A DNA stretch of 36,710 bases from a virus, in IMG/VR virus record IMGVR_UViG_3300025598_000090, positions 1 to 36,710 of that record; one strand, written 5' to 3'. A model generated the notes under the pieces. That model was given only the letters and a program-made list of their open reading frames with translations, was not told the origin of the DNA and searched no databases. A program made the position numbers and the translations under genes. This document shows, in pieces, positions 27,074 through 34,171 of the stretch (its first letter is position 1; each line of letters begins with the position of its first letter).

Positions 27074-28987
27074 GTGGCAAAACAAATTTTCAATACCTCT
27101 ACCCCTAAAGTAGTTTATCTTACAAATAAAGATATTTTAAAACAAATACATCTTAGTAAAAATACATACTGTTCATTCTTAGATCCTGTAAACGATCATC
27201 AATATGACATTATCTTACCATCAGTGGCTAAGATTAATCAAAGAACCGTAGCAGAAGCTCGCAGAAATCGTGCTGATCGCATTAAAAAAGAAACTGGAGT
27301 TGTAGTAGATCCTAAAAAGATTCCTAACACTGATTTAGTTTTTAGGGTTACGTGCTGGGAACATATTCCAATGGCGCCAAAAAAGATACCAAAATCAGCG
27401 CAAACCAAAAAGAAAAAATTGGAAGATATTTTTGATTTTGGCATTGCCGAAGATGCTGTTATTGATTTACCGGAAGAAAATGAACTAAGCATAAAATATG
27501 TCAGGCTTCCATTTCCTCCTTTTTATCATTATCGTATAGACGAAAATAAAATCCCGTTTATTGTAGGAAAAAGCCATTGGCGTGGTGACTTAGAAACCGG
27601 CGAGTTTGATAAAGATCACGGTGAAATGACGCGAACGCTGGCCACTATGTTTATTAAATTATGTGATAGATATGCCACACGAAGCAATTGGCGCGGCTAT
27701 TGTGTAGATGAAGCAACTGAAGCCCTAACTGATAAAGGATGGGTCAGCATTGATGATATCAACGAAAATAACAAAATACTAAGTTACAATGGCAGTAATT
27801 TAGCATGGAGTAGCATACGTAGCATTTACCGCGGCGAATTTAATGGTCTTATGCATAAATTAACCATGCGCGGATATGATTCTTTAATTACACCTAATCA
27901 TAAAATAGTTACCAAAAGAGGATTAGTTCCGGTAGAATTACTCAAAGAAAATGATCAAATGATTTTATCCGCTGATGCCGAAGAAGGTGTTAAAGAATCA
28001 ATATACAGCAATGATTTCGTAGAACTAGCTGGATGGATCGTAACCGAAGGATGTTATGAAATAGAACGCAACGTAGAATCAAAATTAGGTAATATCAAAC
28101 GAATTACTGTTTATCAAAATGCCGGAGCCAAAGCCGATCGCATTAAAAATTGTTTAAATAATTTAGGTTATAAGTTTAGTGAAGGTGTTAGAGGTAAGAA
28201 TCTTTGTTTTTCTATCAGCAGAAATGATTGTAAAAAAATTATTCAAATATTACCAGAAAAAAATCTCAGTATGAAATTTATTTTAAGTCTTACACTAAAA
28301 CAAAGAGAACTTTTAATAGAAACTATGATAGACGGCGATGGATGGAGAAGATCTAATGGCAATCGTAGTTATGTTCAAAAAGACAAGCATCATGTTGATT
28401 TATTTCAAGCATTGTGTGTATTATCCGGAGTACGTTCTAATACTCATTTAGTAGACTCTATATCTTTCGGCAAACCGTCCGCATGTTATGCTGTAAATTT
28501 ATTTTCAAAAAAGAGTAATATAGCAAAAGTATCTTCCGTCAATTTACATGGAGGAAAGAGAAATGGTAGAAAACGCATTGGGGCCGGCAAAATTACTCAC
28601 CCTAACGAACCTACTACATACTATAAAGGTCGTGTATGGTGTCCGGAAACAGAATACGGATGTTTTGTTGCTAGACGTAATGGTACCGTTTATCTTACTG
28701 GAAATACCTACAATGAAGAAATGAGAGGGGCTGCATTGGTACAACTAAGCCAAATTGGTTTAAGGTTTGATGAGTCTAAATCACAAAATCCTTTTGCCTA
28801 CTATACTGCCGCAGTTACTAATTCCTTTACTCACGTTTTAAACAGTGAAAAAAAGAATCAAAATATTCGAGATGACTTGTTAGAAATACACGGGCTAAAT
28901 CCCAGCTGGACACGACAAAATTCTGGCGGCAAAGATCACAACAAAGACAGTGAAGTAATAATTACCTATGGAGATCAACCAGTTTAA
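27074..28987 (+). CDS. gp55: Late-transcription sigma factor gp55-like, interrupted by an intein
   Basis: A 637-residue precursor; GTG start with AGGAG 9 bases upstream. Removing residues 210-544 leaves a 302-residue extein. The joined sequence RSNWRGY+TYNEEMRGAAL, then FDESKSQNPFAYYTAAVTNS and LNSEKKNQNIRDDLL, matches the sigma region 2-like core of gp55 (T4: NFSGYTQ...NFDETKYKNPHAYITQ). gp55 binds host RNA polymerase core and recognises the TATAAATA element of late promoters, with the sliding clamp and gp33 as partners. T4 gp55 has 185 residues; here an N-terminal region of about 190 residues (YLTNKDILKQIHLSKNTYCSF, KSHWRGDLETGEF) precedes the core, as I recall for marine relatives. No T4-type C-terminal clamp-binding tail is evident. 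The stop is 35 bases before gp47. Confidence 0.9.
   Translation: MAKQIFNTSTPKVVYLTNKDILKQIHLSKNTYCSFLDPVNDHQYDIILPSVAKINQRTVAEARRNRADRIKKETGVVVDPKKIPNTDLVFRVTCWEHIPMAPKKIPKSAQTKKKKLEDIFDFGIAEDAVIDLPEENELSIKYVRLPFPPFYHYRIDENKIPFIVGKSHWRGDLETGEFDKDHGEMTRTLATMFIKLCDRYATRSNWRGYCVDEATEALTDKGWVSIDDINENNKILSYNGSNLAWSSIRSIYRGEFNGLMHKLTMRGYDSLITPNHKIVTKRGLVPVELLKENDQMILSADAEEGVKESIYSNDFVELAGWIVTEGCYEIERNVESKLGNIKRITVYQNAGAKADRIKNCLNNLGYKFSEGVRGKNLCFSISRNDCKKIIQILPEKNLSMKFILSLTLKQRELLIETMIDGDGWRRSNGNRSYVQKDKHHVDLFQALCVLSGVRSNTHLVDSISFGKPSACYAVNLFSKKSNIAKVSSVNLHGGKRNGRKRIGAGKITHPNEPTTYYKGRVWCPETEYGCFVARRNGTVYLTGNTYNEEMRGAALVQLSQIGLRFDESKSQNPFAYYTAAVTNSFTHVLNSEKKNQNIRDDLLEIHGLNPSWTRQNSGGKDHNKDSEVIITYGDQPV
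27701..28705 (+). other. Intein with LAGLIDADG homing endonuclease in gp55
   Basis: Residues 210-544 of the precursor (335 aa). The N-terminal splice block begins at Cys210 (CVDEATEALTDKGWVSIDDI). Block B has T273-P-N-H276, the usual TxxH. Two LAGLIDADG-type motifs follow: LAGWIVTEG at 318-326 (acidic residue E325) and IETMIDGDG at 415-423 (acidic residue D422). The C-terminal blocks are CFVARRNGTVYLTGN, ending at Asn544, with Thr545 as the first C-extein residue. The residue before the terminal Asn is Gly rather than His, a variant seen in active inteins. All splice and nuclease positions look intact, so it is likely active in splicing. Boundaries are clear because the flanking extein joins into a continuous gp55 motif. 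Confidence 0.92.
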
Positions 28988-29022: not shown

Positions 29023-30039
29023 ATGAGTAATCTATTTAAAAAAGCGGCAGTGTTCACCGATATACATTTTGGCCTAAAGTCTAATAGTATAGTACATTTA
29101 AATGATTGTGAAGCGTTTGTTGATTGGTTTATTATCAAAGCCAAAGAAGAAGGGTGTGAGACCGGATTTTTCCTCGGAGACTGGCACCACCACAGAGCTT
29201 CAATCAATATGCAAACACTTCACTATTCAATCAGATGTTTAGAAAAATTAAGTAAAGCATTTGATACTGTATATGTCATTCCAGGCAATCATGATTTGTT
29301 CTTTAGAGAAAAAAGAGATATACATGGTCTTGAGTGGGCACGACATTTACCCAATGTTGTTATCATCAATGATTGGTTTAAAAAAGGCGACGTAGTAATT
29401 GCGCCGTGGTTAGTAGGCGACGATCATAAAAAAATATCTAAAATGTCCGCCAAATACATGTTTGGACACTTTGAACTTCCTAGTTTTTTAATGAACTCGT
29501 TTGTTGCTATGCCTGATACCGGTGAAGTAAAACTTGAAAGTTTCCAAGGTGCTGAAAAAGTCTTCAGCGGGCATTTTCATTTACGTCAACAAAAAAATAA
29601 CATCAACTATATTGGTAATAGTTTCCCTCATAATTTTTCCGATGCCGGCGATAGCAATCGCGGCATGATGGTATTAGCGTGGGGTACTGAACCTGAATAT
29701 CATGCTTGGCCGCAACAACCTTTATACCGCGTTATGAAATTAAGTGAAGCCATTGACAATGCGAGTAATATTTTTGTTCCGAATATGCATGTCAAAGTAG
29801 AGCTAGACATTGATATCAGTTATGAAGAAGCTAATTTTATCAAAGAAAAATTTATAGGGGATTATAATTTGCGTGAAATAGCATTGATAACCAGTAAGAA
29901 AGCTGATGTTGGTATTGATTTGTCTCCGGGCGATATAAAATTTGAAAGTGTAGATCAAATTATCACTGCTCAACTCACTGACATAGAATCAGAATTTTAT
30001 GATCCAAAATTGTTATTGAAAATTTACCAAAGTTTATGA
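29023..30039 (+). CDS. gp47: Recombination endonuclease subunit gp47 (Mre11/SbcD-like)
   Basis: A 338-residue metallophosphoesterase. All five metal-binding motifs are present: D13-I-H15, G-D53-W-H-H, G-N89-H90-D, G-H149-F, and G-H184-F-H186. Mre11-type nucleases bind two Mn ions and process double-strand ends; in T4, gp47 with the ATPase gp46 resects ends for UvsX-dependent recombination and replication, and helps degrade host DNA. T4 gp47 has 339 residues, so length fits exactly. The stop overlaps the gp46 start as ATGA, as expected for two subunits of one complex. No Shine-Dalgarno sequence is visible before the ATG. Confidence 0.95.
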   Translation: MSNLFKKAAVFTDIHFGLKSNSIVHLNDCEAFVDWFIIKAKEEGCETGFFLGDWHHHRASINMQTLHYSIRCLEKLSKAFDTVYVIPGNHDLFFREKRDIHGLEWARHLPNVVIINDWFKKGDVVIAPWLVGDDHKKISKMSAKYMFGHFELPSFLMNSFVAMPDTGEVKLESFQGAEKVFSGHFHLRQQKNNINYIGNSFPHNFSDAGDSNRGMMVLAWGTEPEYHAWPQQPLYRVMKLSEAIDNASNIFVPNMHVKVELDIDISYEEANFIKEKFIGDYNLREIALITSKKADVGIDLSPGDIKFESVDQIITAQLTDIESEFYDPKLLLKIYQSL

Positions 30040-31799
30040 TTAAAATAAAAAATTTAACTATTAAGAATTTTCTAAGTGTAGGGAATGCCACGCAGTCTGT
30101 AAATTTTGATCGCAATGATTTAACCTTGGTGCTGGGTGAAAATTTAGACTTAGGCGGTGATGGTTCTAGAAATGGTGTTGGAAAAACCGCTTTGCTAAAC
30201 TCTATCAGCTATGCGCTATATGGTTCTGCTGTCAGTAATATCAGAAAAGACAATTTGATAAATCAAACTAATGCCAAAAATATGTTGGTATCATTAGACT
30301 TTGACGTTAACAATACCAACTACAGAATTGAACGCGGACGTCGACCCAATGTACTGAGGTTTTTTATTGATAGTAAAGAAACTGAAGCTACAGATAGCGC
30401 CCAAGGTGATAGTCGTGAAACACAAGAAGCCATTGAGGAACTACTAGGCTTAAGTCACGACATGTTCAAGCATATAGTTGCGTTAAACACATACACCGAA
30501 CCTTTTTTAAGTTTAAAAGCAAACGAACAACGAACTATTATTGAACAATTATTAGGCATTACACTACTAAGTGAACGAGCTGATAAAATCAAGGAACTTA
30601 ACAGAAATACCAAAGATGAAATTACTCGCGAAGAATTTAGAATTAGAGCAGTAAATGAAGCTAATAAACGAATAGAAGAACAAATCGAAAGTGTAAAACG
30701 CAAGCAAACAATTTGGGTTACCAAACACAATGAAGATATTGCTAGACTTACGGAAGCATTAGAGCTATTAAAAGAAATTGATATCGAAGATGAAATTCAA
30801 GCTCATCGAGATAAAGCCGCGTGGAATCAAAAACGCAAGCACTTTAATGATTTGTCATCTGCTCTTAGTCGCGTAAAAATGGATTTACAGCGTGAAGAAA
30901 AGATTATTGGCAAATTGCAAAAAGAAATTGAAACGCTAGAAGCGCATACTTGTCATACATGCGGGCAGTCTTTTCACGATGACAAACACACACAGGTACT
31001 AAGTGGTAAACAACGAGAATTAGAAGAAGCTAAAAATAAACGTACCGAGTTCAGTGAAATTCTGGCGGATATACAAGCAGAAATGACAGCGCTAGGTGAG
31101 ATTGGTAAACCTGTCACTACATTCTATACCAGTGAAGAAGACGCTTACCATCATAGGTCTAGTTTAGATAATTTGCAAAAACAAATTTTAGAAAAATCTA
31201 CTGAGCAAAATCCTTTTAGCGAGCAGATTGAAGAAATGTCTACACAGGCTTTACAAATAGTAGACTATGATATTTTAAATAATCTTACCAAACTTCAAGA
31301 ACATCAAGATTTCTTACTTAAATTACTAACCAGTAAAGACAGTTTTATTCGTAAAAAAATCATTGAACAAAATTTAAGCTATTTAAATTCAAGACTCACT
31401 TATTATTTAGATAAAGTAGGATTACCGCATAGTGTATTGTTCCAAAATGATCTATCAGTAAGCATCGAAGAGTTAGGTAGAGAGCTTGACTTCGACAATC
31501 TTAGCCGCGGAGAGCGTAATCGTCTTATACTAAGTATAGCGTGGGCATTTAGAGATGTATTCGAAAGTTTGTACACACCTATTAATTTGCTGTTTGTGGA
31601 CGAAATGATTGATAATGGACTTGACACTCAAGGAGTTGAAGCATCATTATCATTACTTAAACAAATGAGTCGAGATAGGAATAAAAGCATTTGGTTAGTA
31701 AGTCACAGAGACGAACTTACTAGTCGCGTAGAAAATATATTAAAAGTAATTAAAGTACATGGCTTCACAAATTTTAGTCAGGAGGGAGACACAGCATAA
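30036..31799 (+). CDS. gp46: Recombination endonuclease subunit gp46 (Rad50/SbcC-like ATPase)
   Basis: A 587-residue ABC/SMC-type ATPase. Walker A is split by an insert typical of gp46 (GENLDLGGDGSRNGVGKT, K50); the signature is LSRGER (489-494), Walker B LLFVDE (518-523), D-loop GLD, and the H-loop histidine is H557. Two charged coiled-coil arms of moderate length flank a zinc hook C306-H-T-C309. This is the partner of gp47: ATP-driven opening and closing of the Rad50-like head controls nuclease access to DNA ends. T4 gp46 is 560 residues. Its start overlaps the gp47 stop by four bases. Near the end, GGAGGGAG (31781-31788) lies about 19 bases before the next ATG, too far for a normal ribosome site. 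Confidence 0.95.
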   Translation: MIKIKNLTIKNFLSVGNATQSVNFDRNDLTLVLGENLDLGGDGSRNGVGKTALLNSISYALYGSAVSNIRKDNLINQTNAKNMLVSLDFDVNNTNYRIERGRRPNVLRFFIDSKETEATDSAQGDSRETQEAIEELLGLSHDMFKHIVALNTYTEPFLSLKANEQRTIIEQLLGITLLSERADKIKELNRNTKDEITREEFRIRAVNEANKRIEEQIESVKRKQTIWVTKHNEDIARLTEALELLKEIDIEDEIQAHRDKAAWNQKRKHFNDLSSALSRVKMDLQREEKIIGKLQKEIETLEAHTCHTCGQSFHDDKHTQVLSGKQRELEEAKNKRTEFSEILADIQAEMTALGEIGKPVTTFYTSEEDAYHHRSSLDNLQKQILEKSTEQNPFSEQIEEMSTQALQIVDYDILNNLTKLQEHQDFLLKLLTSKDSFIRKKIIEQNLSYLNSRLTYYLDKVGLPHSVLFQNDLSVSIEELGRELDFDNLSRGERNRLILSIAWAFRDVFESLYTPINLLFVDEMIDNGLDTQGVEASLSLLKQMSRDRNKSIWLVSHRDELTSRVENILKVIKVHGFTNFSQEGDTA

Positions 31800-31807
31800 T
31801 TAACATT

Positions 31808-32242
31808 ATGCCATGGCTATACGAAGGATTAGAAATAAATGAACTACCAGAAGATTGTGTAGGGTACGTGTATTGTATAACCAATTTAACTACCGGTAAA
31901 AAATACATCGGTAAAAAATTATCAAAATTTAGTAAAACAACTTATAAAACAGTAAAACAAAAAAACGGCATCAAAAAACGGAAAAAAATACGCTCAAAAA
32001 TCGACAGTGATTGGAGAGTTTACACCGGCAGCAACTTAGAATTAAACAAAGACATCGAAGAATTAGGCATCGAAAATTTTTCTCGCGAAATACTTTACTA
32101 TTGTAAATCAAAAGCAGAATGTTCCTACATAGAAGCCAGAGAACAGTTCAATAGAAAAGTGTTAGAAAGCGACGAATATTACAATGGTATCATCGCAGTC
32201 AAAGTACATAAAAGTCATGTAATCAATAAAATTAATCAATAA
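31808..32242 (+). CDS. GIY-YIG-like nuclease family protein, conserved in T4-like phages
   Basis: A 144-residue protein. The GIY-YIG pair appears as Y20-V-Y22 and Y33-I-G35 in GYVYCITNLTTGKKYIGKK, with correct spacing, followed by a Lys-rich region, DWRVYTGSN (a W...Y-x-G-S/N pattern) and an E-rich helix ECSYIEAREQF. Proteins beginning MPWLYEG...LPE and ending in VRVHKSH-like sequence are, from memory, common short orphan proteins of T4-like and other phages. They are often called putative endonucleases, but no activity is known to me. It starts 8 bases after gp46. It could be a homing-type nuclease, a DNA repair nuclease, or an inactive relative. Confidence 0.75.
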   Translation: MPWLYEGLEINELPEDCVGYVYCITNLTTGKKYIGKKLSKFSKTTYKTVKQKNGIKKRKKIRSKIDSDWRVYTGSNLELNKDIEELGIENFSREILYYCKSKAECSYIEAREQFNRKVLESDEYYNGIIAVKVHKSHVINKINQ

Positions 32243-32256
32243 AAAGGCATCACAAA

Positions 32257-32406
32257 ATGAATAAAAAAGAATGGCGACAAAAATATCGTAAAGAAAAAAA
32301 AGAATGTAGGCTTAGAGCAGCCGAACATCAACTTAAAGAAAAAATAAACGCAACTACTTTTAACAATTTATTTAAACCAGTTAATTTAAACAATAGCAAC
32401 AAATAA
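32257..32406 (+). CDS. Small basic protein, 49 residues, unknown
   Basis: The ATG at 32257 lies 14 bases after the GIY-YIG stop, with a weak AAAAAGG upstream. The protein starts MNKKEWRQKYRKEKKEC and ends in an Asn-rich tail. The first 31 residues are strongly charged (Lys/Arg/Glu) and likely helical; this could bind nucleic acid, but nothing recognisable is seen. It ends just before the structured RNA region. Codon choice (AAA, AAC, TTA) is like its neighbours. Could be a real small phage protein or a chance frame in the gap. Confidence 0.5.
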   Translation: MNKKEWRQKYRKEKKECRLRAAEHQLKEKINATTFNNLFKPVNLNNSNK

Positions 32407-32422
32407 GCAAGCATCATAAAAC

Positions 32423-32935
32423 CCTTGACTCCCATCAAGGTGCCGCCGAAAGAATTTAAACGCTTTCGCACGGTCCGGGTTATTCAGACAAATGGGCTGT
32501 CTGTTGGCATCACCGTAGATAAAAGTTACGTCTACAAATGGTTAGAAAAATGTGTTGACGGATGATTGGTCTGTCCCTATTGAGGAACGGTGAGATACCC
32601 GGTCTGGATCTTAGGAAGGAAAGTGCTAGCACAACACTTTCCAGGTAAATGCTAACTTAAGGCATCAAATGGTTTGGGCTCTGTGAAAAAGAAACAACCC
32701 ATGCTTATAGGACTTTGTTTGTTGTTATAGGGTCACTAGGGTTCCGTTGATATGTGAAGCTAGAGTAGGGGGTACCGGTCAACCGCCTCCGTTACGTCTA
32801 TTATGGGAATAATAGGTAAATCTCTTGATAATTTTAACCGACTGCCGTCTATGGAAACGTCTTTGTCATTCACCGTGTTTACGGTGAATAACGACCCCGT
32901 GTTCTTGGAAAACCTAATCCACCGGAAACAGTTAA
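32423..32935 (+). ncRNA. Large structured non-coding RNA candidate (about 500 nt)
   Basis: No convincing gene lies between 32407 and 33116. Most of this gap is richer in G and C than its surroundings and folds into many nested helices. Hairpins: CCUUGA/UCAAGG (32423-32440), CGAAAG/CUUUCG (32447-32468), CAGACA/UGUCUG (32485-32503), UAGAU/GUCUA (32516-32534), GACGGA/UCUGUC (32557-32575), GGAAAGUG/CACUUUCC (32618-32642), CUAUUA/UAAUAG (32798-32815), and a 9-bp stem with a GUUU loop (32868-32889). Longer-range helices: CCGGGU/ACCCGG (32475-32480 with 32597-32602) encloses UCACCG/CGGUGA (32510-32515 with 32588-32593); GAUCUUA pairs with UAAG..AUC (32607-32613 with 32658-32666). The G-U pairs fit the plus strand. 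Size and setting recall phage-borne giant RNAs such as GOLLD or ROOL, but I cannot confirm a family. Ends are approximate. Confidence 0.65.
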
Positions 32936-32989
32936 ACAAATAGCTATAATGTTACTAAAGTAAATCTAGAAAAATTAAGCCTAATAAAA

Positions 32990-33045
32990 ATAGAAGAAAA
33001 AATAAGACCGAGTGTAAACGAGGTCTTGGATTAGCTTGCTAATCC
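32990..33045 (-). terminator. Probable intrinsic terminator for the gp26 operon
   Basis: Read on the minus strand: hairpin GGATTAG-CAAG-CTAATCC, then hairpin AAGACC/GGTCTT, followed by a T-rich run (ATTTTTTCTTCTATTTTT). It lies about 70 bases after the stop of the small minus-strand gene, so it fits the end of the gp26 transcript. The plus-strand reading of the hairpins is not followed by a T-run. Confidence 0.6.
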
Positions 33046-33116
33046 CTTAAATGAGAAACAAAGTGTAAACACAGTAAAAAAATCATTTAGGATAATGGTA
33101 TACTATGAGTAAAATA

Positions 33117-33329
33117 TCAAAAGAATGGCAAGCCAGAACGTTTTGTCGCTTCCATGTTTTCTTTTACTATGTCACTTATGATTTTTCTTTCAGCATTGCC
33201 TAAATTCATAGCTTCCCCGTAGCCTAGTCCACCGCGCATATACCAAACCATTTTTAACGCCTCTTGCTTAATGCCTTCTACTTCTTTGTCCATGCTATCA
33301 AGTAATTTAGCAATAGCTTCGTTGTTCAT
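33117..33329 (-). CDS. Small baseplate-hub-associated protein (gp51-like annotation in relatives)
   Basis: A 70-residue protein. I use the ATG at 33329, which follows the gp26 TGA after two bases (TGATAATG); a TTG two codons earlier is possible but less likely. The sequence is helical, with KMVWYMRGGLGYGEAMNL, NAERKIISDIVKEN and the C-terminal TKRSGLPFF. This pattern is familiar from short proteins directly after gp26 in marine T4-like phages, which are sometimes annotated as baseplate hub assembly catalyst (gp51). Coupling to gp26 supports a role in hub or tail assembly, perhaps as a chaperone. Real homology to T4 gp51 (249 aa) is not shown. Confidence 0.65.
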   Translation of the reverse strand: MNNEAIAKLLDSMDKEVEGIKQEALKMVWYMRGGLGYGEAMNLGNAERKIISDIVKENMEATKRSGLPFF

Positions 33330-33331
33330 TA

Positions 33332-34171
33332 TCAAGAGGCGCGCCCGAAAAAATTCGACATGTCTAAAGTAATGGCTTGTTGATATTCATGTTGACAATT
33401 AGCGCATTTAATAGTAATGGGTTGCATTTCTGCTAGGTTTTTATTAGTCACTACGTATTCTTGTATTTTGTTAAATGTTGCGCTGTCACAGTTTTTCATA
33501 AACTCGTTGATGTACTCTACTTCATTTACCATGGCAGTAGGAGTTTTGATGGTTAAAATACTTTGGGTTAACGCAGAAACTGTCATTTCCGTAATGCGTT
33601 TTAGTGCTTGACTTACTTCTGTTATTTTTTCCGGAGTAATTGCTTCAGGATCATTTAAACTTTGAAAAATGCGTTGCTCATCAAATTGAATTTTATTATT
33701 ATCTGACATGTTTTTGTATGTCATAGGTTTGAAATAAATTTCAATATCGCCTTGAGCAATGGGCTGTGTGTAATCTGGTGCTCGAATGTTATCTAGTACT
33801 GTTCGCAAGTCAATACCATATTCATCACTGTTGGCACAAGAAGGACAAGTGGTAGCAAATTGCATTTCGTGACCATAACTGGCAATGCGTATAGATACCA
33901 AAATACTATCTACATCAATAGCAGGAATAGCCCACGCATCTTTAATAGCAGGAATACAACTTTGTATAACATTAACAACCGCTTGACCATTGAATAATGC
34001 ATCTGGAGTTCTATAAGTTATTTCGTCAATAGCAGTCATTGGATAAACTGGCAATTCTCCGTTAGCAGGCATGTCTAATGCTGATTTTGGATAAAAAAGA
34101 CCCTTGCTGGGTAGTTTTAAGTAAATTGATGGTTGTCTAAAATATTGGCTTAATGGGTTGTTTGAAATCAT
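33332..34171 (-). CDS. gp26: Baseplate hub assembly protein, gp26-like, with zinc-binding Cys pairs
   Basis: A 279-residue protein that follows the gp26 plan: N-terminal IYLKLPSKGLFYP, VYPMTAIDEITYRTPDALFN, then SCIPAIKDAW and IRIASYGHEMQF. A four-cysteine site is evident from C109-x-x-C112 and C256-x-x-C259, widely spaced in sequence and probably joined in one zinc knuckle. gp26 in T4 is needed for hub assembly. Length is close to the T4-type protein. The ATG has AAGGAAA about 5 bases upstream. It diverges from the tape measure gene with only 25 bases between the two start codons, and is followed by the 70-residue gene after two bases. Confidence 0.82.
   Translation of the reverse strand: MISNNPLSQYFRQPSIYLKLPSKGLFYPKSALDMPANGELPVYPMTAIDEITYRTPDALFNGQAVVNVIQSCIPAIKDAWAIPAIDVDSILVSIRIASYGHEMQFATTCPSCANSDEYGIDLRTVLDNIRAPDYTQPIAQGDIEIYFKPMTYKNMSDNNKIQFDEQRIFQSLNDPEAITPEKITEVSQALKRITEMTVSALTQSILTIKTPTAMVNEVEYINEFMKNCDSATFNKIQEYVVTNKNLAEMQPITIKCANCQHEYQQAITLDMSNFFGRAS

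Follow-up and report, generated by a model that had tools for sequence, protein, structure and literature searches.

Comparative analysis points to a large, SegE-linked structured RNA of very large bacteriophages in which two tags almost always mutate together

The window, by which we mean the whole stretch of DNA analysed here (36,710 nucleotides; IMG/VR virus record IMGVR_UViG_3300025598_000090), comes from a T4-like phage. On its plus strand, late-sigma gp55, gp47, gp46, a SegE-like GIY-YIG endonuclease gene, and a 49-codon open reading frame (ORF) are followed by an RNA that is oriented in the same direction as the gp55–gp47–gp46–SegE series. Convergent genes lie beyond it. The features of the locus are as follows.

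27074–28987, plus strand: late sigma gp55
29023–30039, plus strand: gp47
30036–31799, plus strand: gp46
31808–32242, plus strand: SegE-like GIY-YIG endonuclease gene (Pfam PF19835, 3e-32), starting 8 nt after the end of gp46
32257–32406, plus strand: 49-codon ORF between SegE and the RNA (ORF list)
32423–32942, plus strand: the RNA, about as first delimited (G+C 43.8% versus 28–30%; alignment and profile of relatives)
33004–33045, plus strand: two hairpins (33004–33027 and 33028–33045), probably a terminator region preceding the convergent genes (sequence)
33117–33335, minus strand: gene for a 72-amino-acid protein
33332–34171, minus strand: T4_baseplate hub gene (PF12322, 1e-16), convergent, used as the query for finding relatives

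Several of the neighboring genes have features of their own. Late sigma gp55 contains a probable intein (residues about 213–543), which was recognized by eye from its junctions (NWRGY-CVDEATEALT...VYLTGN-TYNEEMRG in the window versus NWRGYTYNEEMRG in the homologue L006); no intein model matched it. SegE-like homologues are labeled 'NAD synthetase' in many phages; in the window, the Pfam match is to the SegE GIY-YIG family. The 72-amino-acid gene adjoining the baseplate hub is kept in nearly all loci and matches no PHROG, Pfam, or NCBIfam entry.

The RNA region is non-coding. A preliminary description of this DNA had proposed a G+C-rich structured RNA with no convincing reading frame, and both elements of composition were borne out: G+C is 43.8% in 32423–32942 compared to 30.1% in 31800–32400 and 27.7% in 32950–33115, the longest ORF that lies wholly within the region encodes 59 amino acids, and stop-free runs in the RNA of relatives are about those of shuffled sequence. 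The single sequence did not reveal structure beyond chance. Its minimum free energy was not significant (z-scores of -0.80 and -1.20 for the plus and minus strands), mean z-scores in samples of relatives were also weak (-1.5 and -1.2), and folding energy was dropped as support for structure.

A search with the baseplate protein identified 59 loci, 19 of which were matched by blastn with the RNA region; the best pieces in these 19 loci were 71–92% identical and lay on the SegE strand. A motif search then found at least 119 stretches, and a second motif, taken from more distant copies, found at least 120. An iterated nucleotide profile recovered at least 270 loci including the window copy, 129 of which are type A and 141 of which (all others) are designated type B; the split was made by score against the type-A profile, which assigns a few divergent copies (L018, L023, and L056, for example) to B. 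Loci that contain SegE but lack a profile match, with an RNA directly after SegE, constitute subtype D (at least 120 from a motif search and at least 125 in total). The subtype-D RNA resembles the others in its length (~400 nt), its position after SegE, and its arrangement of ACUC-tag, hairpin, and AUCU-tag, but it occurs in more distant large phages and has its own conserved core sequence that is missed by the type A/B profile. Together, the three subtypes account for at least about 390 IMG/VR loci, some of which come from one contig and are not necessarily independent phages. We use the label 'jumbo' because related RNA-bearing contigs span 178–347 kb; the window itself gives no such basis. 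Isolated phages contained no convincing match to the RNA, and none of 20 pattern matches in bacterial genomes was backed by the profile. For types A and D, we found no earlier description in the open-licence literature.

Alignment of the relatives divides the RNA into the following parts.

32423–32581, plus strand: window-specific 5′ extension that did not align with relatives, with predicted hairpins at 32423–32440 and 32442–32474 and CCGGGT at 32475
32582–32604, plus strand: local element GAGGAACGGTGAGATACCCGGTC, kept in many type-A relatives (alignment; covarying columns 66–79 and 67–78)
32618–32642, plus strand: hairpin GGAAAGTG..CACTTTCC, in the window and missing from aligned relatives (alignment)
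32649–32665, plus strand: helix ATGC/GCAT closing the conserved loop TAACTTAAG (helix 1; double changes in 4 of 4 pairs)
32671–32704, plus strand: hairpin with conserved GUGAAAAAGA core (helices 2 and 3; 99–100% paired, double changes in 6 of 7 pairs)
32708–32738, plus strand: hairpin whose loop forms pseudoknot 1 (helix 4; 95.7% paired)
32724–32728, plus strand: 5′ strand of pseudoknot 1, GUUAU (helices 5 and 6; window register assigned by eye)
32746–32750 with 32779–32783, plus strand: pseudoknot 2, GUUGA/UCAAC (helix 7)
32763–32824, plus strand: junction closed by GAG (32763–32765) and CTC (32822–32824) (helices 8 and 9)
32768–32790 and 32798–32815, plus strand: junction hairpins, the first GGGGGTACCGGTCAACCGCCTCC and the second lengthened in the window (helices 8 and 9)
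32828–32832, plus strand: 3′ strand of pseudoknot 1, AUAAU (helices 5 and 6; window register assigned by eye)
32837–32859, plus strand: module 1, with the tag TGGAAA at 32852–32857
32868–32889, plus strand: hairpin ATTCACCG..CGGTGAAT between the modules (helix 11; 95% paired)
32891–32913, plus strand: module 2, with the identical tag TGGAAA at 32906–32911

Delimitation of the RNA in the preliminary description was about right: a family-conserved core (32582–32914) follows the 5′ extension found in the window, and terminator-like hairpins extend to 33045. The motifs highlighted there (CCGGGT at 32475, ACCCGG at 32597, TCACCG at 32510, and CGGTGA at 32588) are present, but the nested long-range helices drawn from them are not conserved. 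CGGUGA..ACCCGG is kept in 46 of 128 type-A relatives, and the upstream CCGGGU partner is kept in none. The helices that covary differ from those named earlier and lie mostly within 32582–32914. The hairpins at 32618–32642 and 32798–32815 are present or lengthened in the window copy only, which marks these positions as sites that tolerate insertions.

A home-made mutual-information scan of 93 type-A and 104 type-B sequences flagged many canonical pairs in both subtypes, the pseudoknots among them. RNAalifold on a mixed alignment of A and B yielded only 6 pairs. Because hairpin registers probably differ between the two subtypes, pairs were formally counted on type A alone with a structure given by hand (34 sequences including the window; alignment A2). 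In this set, 91.4% of cells were paired compared to 38–50% in slid controls, a figure that is favored by the structure having been hand-written from the relative L006. Double changes, which are less exposed to this choice, occurred at 28 pairs and in 117 cells versus 13.2 and 30.1 in shuffles; relatedness inflates the shuffle controls and not the slid ones. Helix 10 failed (14% paired), probably through misregistration by the aligner.

Pseudoknot 1 (helices 5 and 6) was 92% paired with double changes in 7 of 7 pairs, and the same pseudoknot occurs in subtype B. Across A and B it changes on both sides, reading UUAGCGU/ACGCUAA in many copies and ACAGCAG/CUGCUGU in L238. Pseudoknot 2 (helix 7) was 98% paired and mostly invariant in type A; it covaries in subtype B at columns 261–292 and 262–291 (GUUGU/ACAAC, GUCGU/ACGAC, and GUCAU/AUGAC). 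The sequence of the junction at 32763–32824 is highly conserved across subtypes A and B, and hairpins downstream of the RNA covary in type-A relatives (columns 387–411 and 415–427). Covariation among the copies shows a multi-helix fold that is conserved and contains two pseudoknots together with a 3′ domain in which two repeat modules flank a hairpin. The proposal of a large structured phage RNA is upheld by these homologues, which covary and share no conserved reading frame across the region. Judged by comparison of its copies, this region is indeed a non-coding RNA with an elaborate fold, and hundreds of very large bacteriophages carry it.

In comparing the RNA with catalogued families, we noticed a relationship to Polynucleobacter-1 RNA (RF01718), which has been listed for Burkholderiales from fresh water and estuary (Weinberg et al. 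2010, PMC2864571). Freshwater Burkholderiales, Polynucleobacter among them, may be hosts of these phages. RF01718 corresponds to the 5′ half of the subtype-B RNA. Eight copies of type B scored 81.7–121 bits, above the gathering score of 37 bits, with the match directly upstream of the 3′ domain that profile and alignment reveal to be common to type B and the window's type A; the Rfam model ends before this shared domain and the tags. The divergent copies L018, L023, and L056 fell below the cut-off, and no type-A copy scanned, the window's included, matched RF01718. The family was also absent from 394 bacterial genomes of one family, in a weak search run without a positive control.

Cow-rumen-2 RNA (RF02947; gathering score 66 bits) had no match in the window and a weak one (22.9 bits) on the type-B 3′ domain. 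In whole contigs, weak RF02947 matches in G002, G003, and G004 coincide in place and strand with matches of model R1, and a weak R1 match in G009 falls on a cow-rumen-2 copy, all of these cross-matches being individually not significant (E 0.02–0.8). Cow-rumen-2 probably shares the 3′ fold as a distant relative; the link is only probable because the type-B loci are interrelated and the matches are not independent. Many cow-rumen-2 copies carry matched tags around a hairpin, as does the RNA described here, but several lack a matched tag and there are 2–4 copies per contig rather than one. Cow-rumen-2 recurs 3–4 times in virus contigs of 411–424 kb (L321–L397; G009, G010, and G011), often between co-directional genes, and several copies lie just upstream of a gene that by eye resembles the baseplate hub. 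Neither RF01718 nor RF02947 rose above its cut-off in Lak-A1, Atu_ph07, or Phosso.

GOLLD, ROOL, and OLE are also large and elaborately folded, and their function is poorly understood; phages and prophages carry GOLLD and ROOL, often near tRNA islands (PMC12286853). The preliminary description had offered GOLLD or ROOL as possible identities, which the results do not support: an Rfam scan of the window gave no match at the gathering threshold and only unrelated chance matches at an E cut-off of 10, and no tRNA was found either in the window or at 20 loci related to it. Covariance models and ARAGORN likewise found no group I or II intron, RNase P, or tmRNA in the window. The other identity that had been offered, a new class, is correct in part. 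Subtype A (including the window) has no Rfam match and neither does subtype D in three loci scanned, whereas RF01718 is part of subtype B and RF02947 is probably a distant relative.

The 3′ domain holds a pattern that is not yet explained: its two tags almost always mutate together so as to stay identical. The modules, ACUC-tag and AUCU-tag, lie on either side of the hairpin, and their flanks are fixed and differ from each other. When anchored on these flanks only, the 7-nt tags were identical in 230 of 235 unambiguous sequences (80/82 in A, 76/76 in B, and 74/77 in D), the 235 excluding 45 further ambiguous sequences and including two type-A exceptions that are possibly mis-anchored. Identity at toggling positions would be about 0.5 under independence. 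There are 8 tag variants in A, 10 in B, and 10 in D. The window's tag is diverged and shorter than the 7 nt of the family, occurring at 32852 and 32906 with a spacing of 54. The tag pattern matched 261 times versus 3 in a shuffled control (4.4 Mb); a count with rotated flanks is an invalid control because it re-detects the same RNAs. No antitag was found within the RNA. In type A, the last tag position tracks a pair of the terminator hairpin (normalized mutual information 0.81), which we take to reflect shared ancestry.

Our preferred explanation, to which we assign a probability of roughly 45%, is that the locus encodes a stand-alone phage non-coding RNA of ~350–500 nt that self-assembles through contacts between identical tags. 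The RNA would be transcribed together with SegE or just after it and would end at the hairpins that precede the convergent baseplate genes and may act as a terminator; we infer its promoter, ends, and processing from the sequence. Its role would be that of a structural RNA rather than a message. The identical tags would make like-with-like contacts, in a single molecule or among molecules derived from the same copy, and through these the RNA may assemble with itself into a dimer or larger particle. OLE, ROOL, and GOLLD, which self-assemble (PMC12286853) and have a different structure, serve as the model. GOLLD and ROOL form homo-oligomeric cages; identity coupling is not an established rule of RNA–RNA contact, and self-assembly is proposed by analogy. 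It is tempting to speculate that the RNA recognizes itself by sequence identity rather than complementarity, through a homotypic tag contact in cis or between copies, although we regard this particular mechanism as doubtful.

Instead of contacting each other, the tags may be two equal binding sites at which the modules bind two copies of one trans-acting partner, a protein or RNA that reads both. Paired equal sites split by a hairpin are a familiar design, and the modules share a UGAC..tag layout and vary jointly. However, no residue of SegE, the 72-amino-acid protein, the baseplate hub, gp46, or gp47 predicted the first tag position (none above 0.24 normalized mutual information), nor did any other column of the RNA exceed 0.43; tags were assigned only where both agreed, and the test probes predictors of the tag and not its identity. 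The idea that SegE or another tested neighbor reads the tag was rejected. Higher values at the rarer N and W tag positions in several proteins (up to 0.57) we read as shared ancestry. Genome-wide, neither G001 nor G002 showed an enrichment of tag motifs. Cow-rumen-2, no more than a probable relative, provides a further argument within single phages. Among its 15 regions in five contigs, some of them near-identical between contigs, a script detected an in-register 6-nt tag match in 8 and inspection by eye added a ninth; the others lack a match, one being apparently degenerate. Copies in G010 carry the different matched tags ACAGAU and CCAGAA (a third, GGUCCA, was read by eye) and copies in G009 carry ACAGAU and GCAGGU; therefore, no single factor reads one tag in those phages. 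We consider two equal sites for one partner unlikely.

Given its tight linkage to SegE, the RNA could act in the service of the nuclease, either as its partner in a ribonucleoprotein or as a 3′ untranslated element that controls SegE mRNA. TnpB-associated RNA is a nuclease-linked RNA of comparable layout. The RNA starts at or just past the SegE stop codon in most relatives, and a SegE stop on the same strand lies less than 1 kb from the 3′ end of the RNA in 192 of the 229 A/B loci that could be tested, typically at a distance of 317–432 nt. In subtype D, the RNA follows SegE in all seven loci inspected (L026, L027, L031, L034, L036, L043, and L053). On the other hand, about 30 A/B loci have other sequence between SegE and the RNA, and because the RNA ends 1.07–2.2 kb from the SegE stop in 20 type-A loci rather than the usual 0.32–0.43 kb, the two are separable. 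In phages Melnitz, S-SRM01, and phiN3, SegE homologues are not followed by a gap of this kind, and the genes found on either side of cow-rumen-2 copies included no SegE homologue. We judge a role in the service of SegE to be just as unlikely as two equal sites.

A copying mechanism would supply the identity rule in cis: a polymerase or ribosome that has passed tag 1 would re-pair its product at tag 2 and skip the hairpin, as in the bypass of T4 gene 60. The spacing of the tags in A and B (44–56 nt, with the hairpin intervening) is in keeping with this mechanism, as is the usual composition of A, B, and D tags (a codon followed by URA), but the URA pattern is missing from cow-rumen-2 tags and the window tag, and no ORF reaches tag 1, which speaks against translational bypass. 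We consider copying highly improbable. Least credible is a self-splicing intron, another ribozyme, or a DNA-level element in which gene conversion equalizes the repeats; SegE is a homing-type nuclease and the repeats are direct, but the RNA structure covaries, no copy scanned matched an Rfam intron, RNase P, or ribozyme, the 8 nt between gp46 and SegE leave no space for the 5′ half of an intron, and gene conversion is disfavored because the fixed difference between the ACUC and AUCU flanks would be lost under it.

The SegE-linked RNA is a widespread addition to the few very large structured RNAs known from phages, and hundreds of its sequences are now on hand for structural work. It extends one catalogued family of unknown function, in that the orphan Rfam family Polynucleobacter-1 is a fragment of it; a second, cow-rumen-2, is probably linked to it as a distant relative. 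Two tags that stay identical while both vary represent a testable oddity. If a homotypic tag contact proved true, the tags would constitute a private address that sorts the related RNAs of one phage, like with like.
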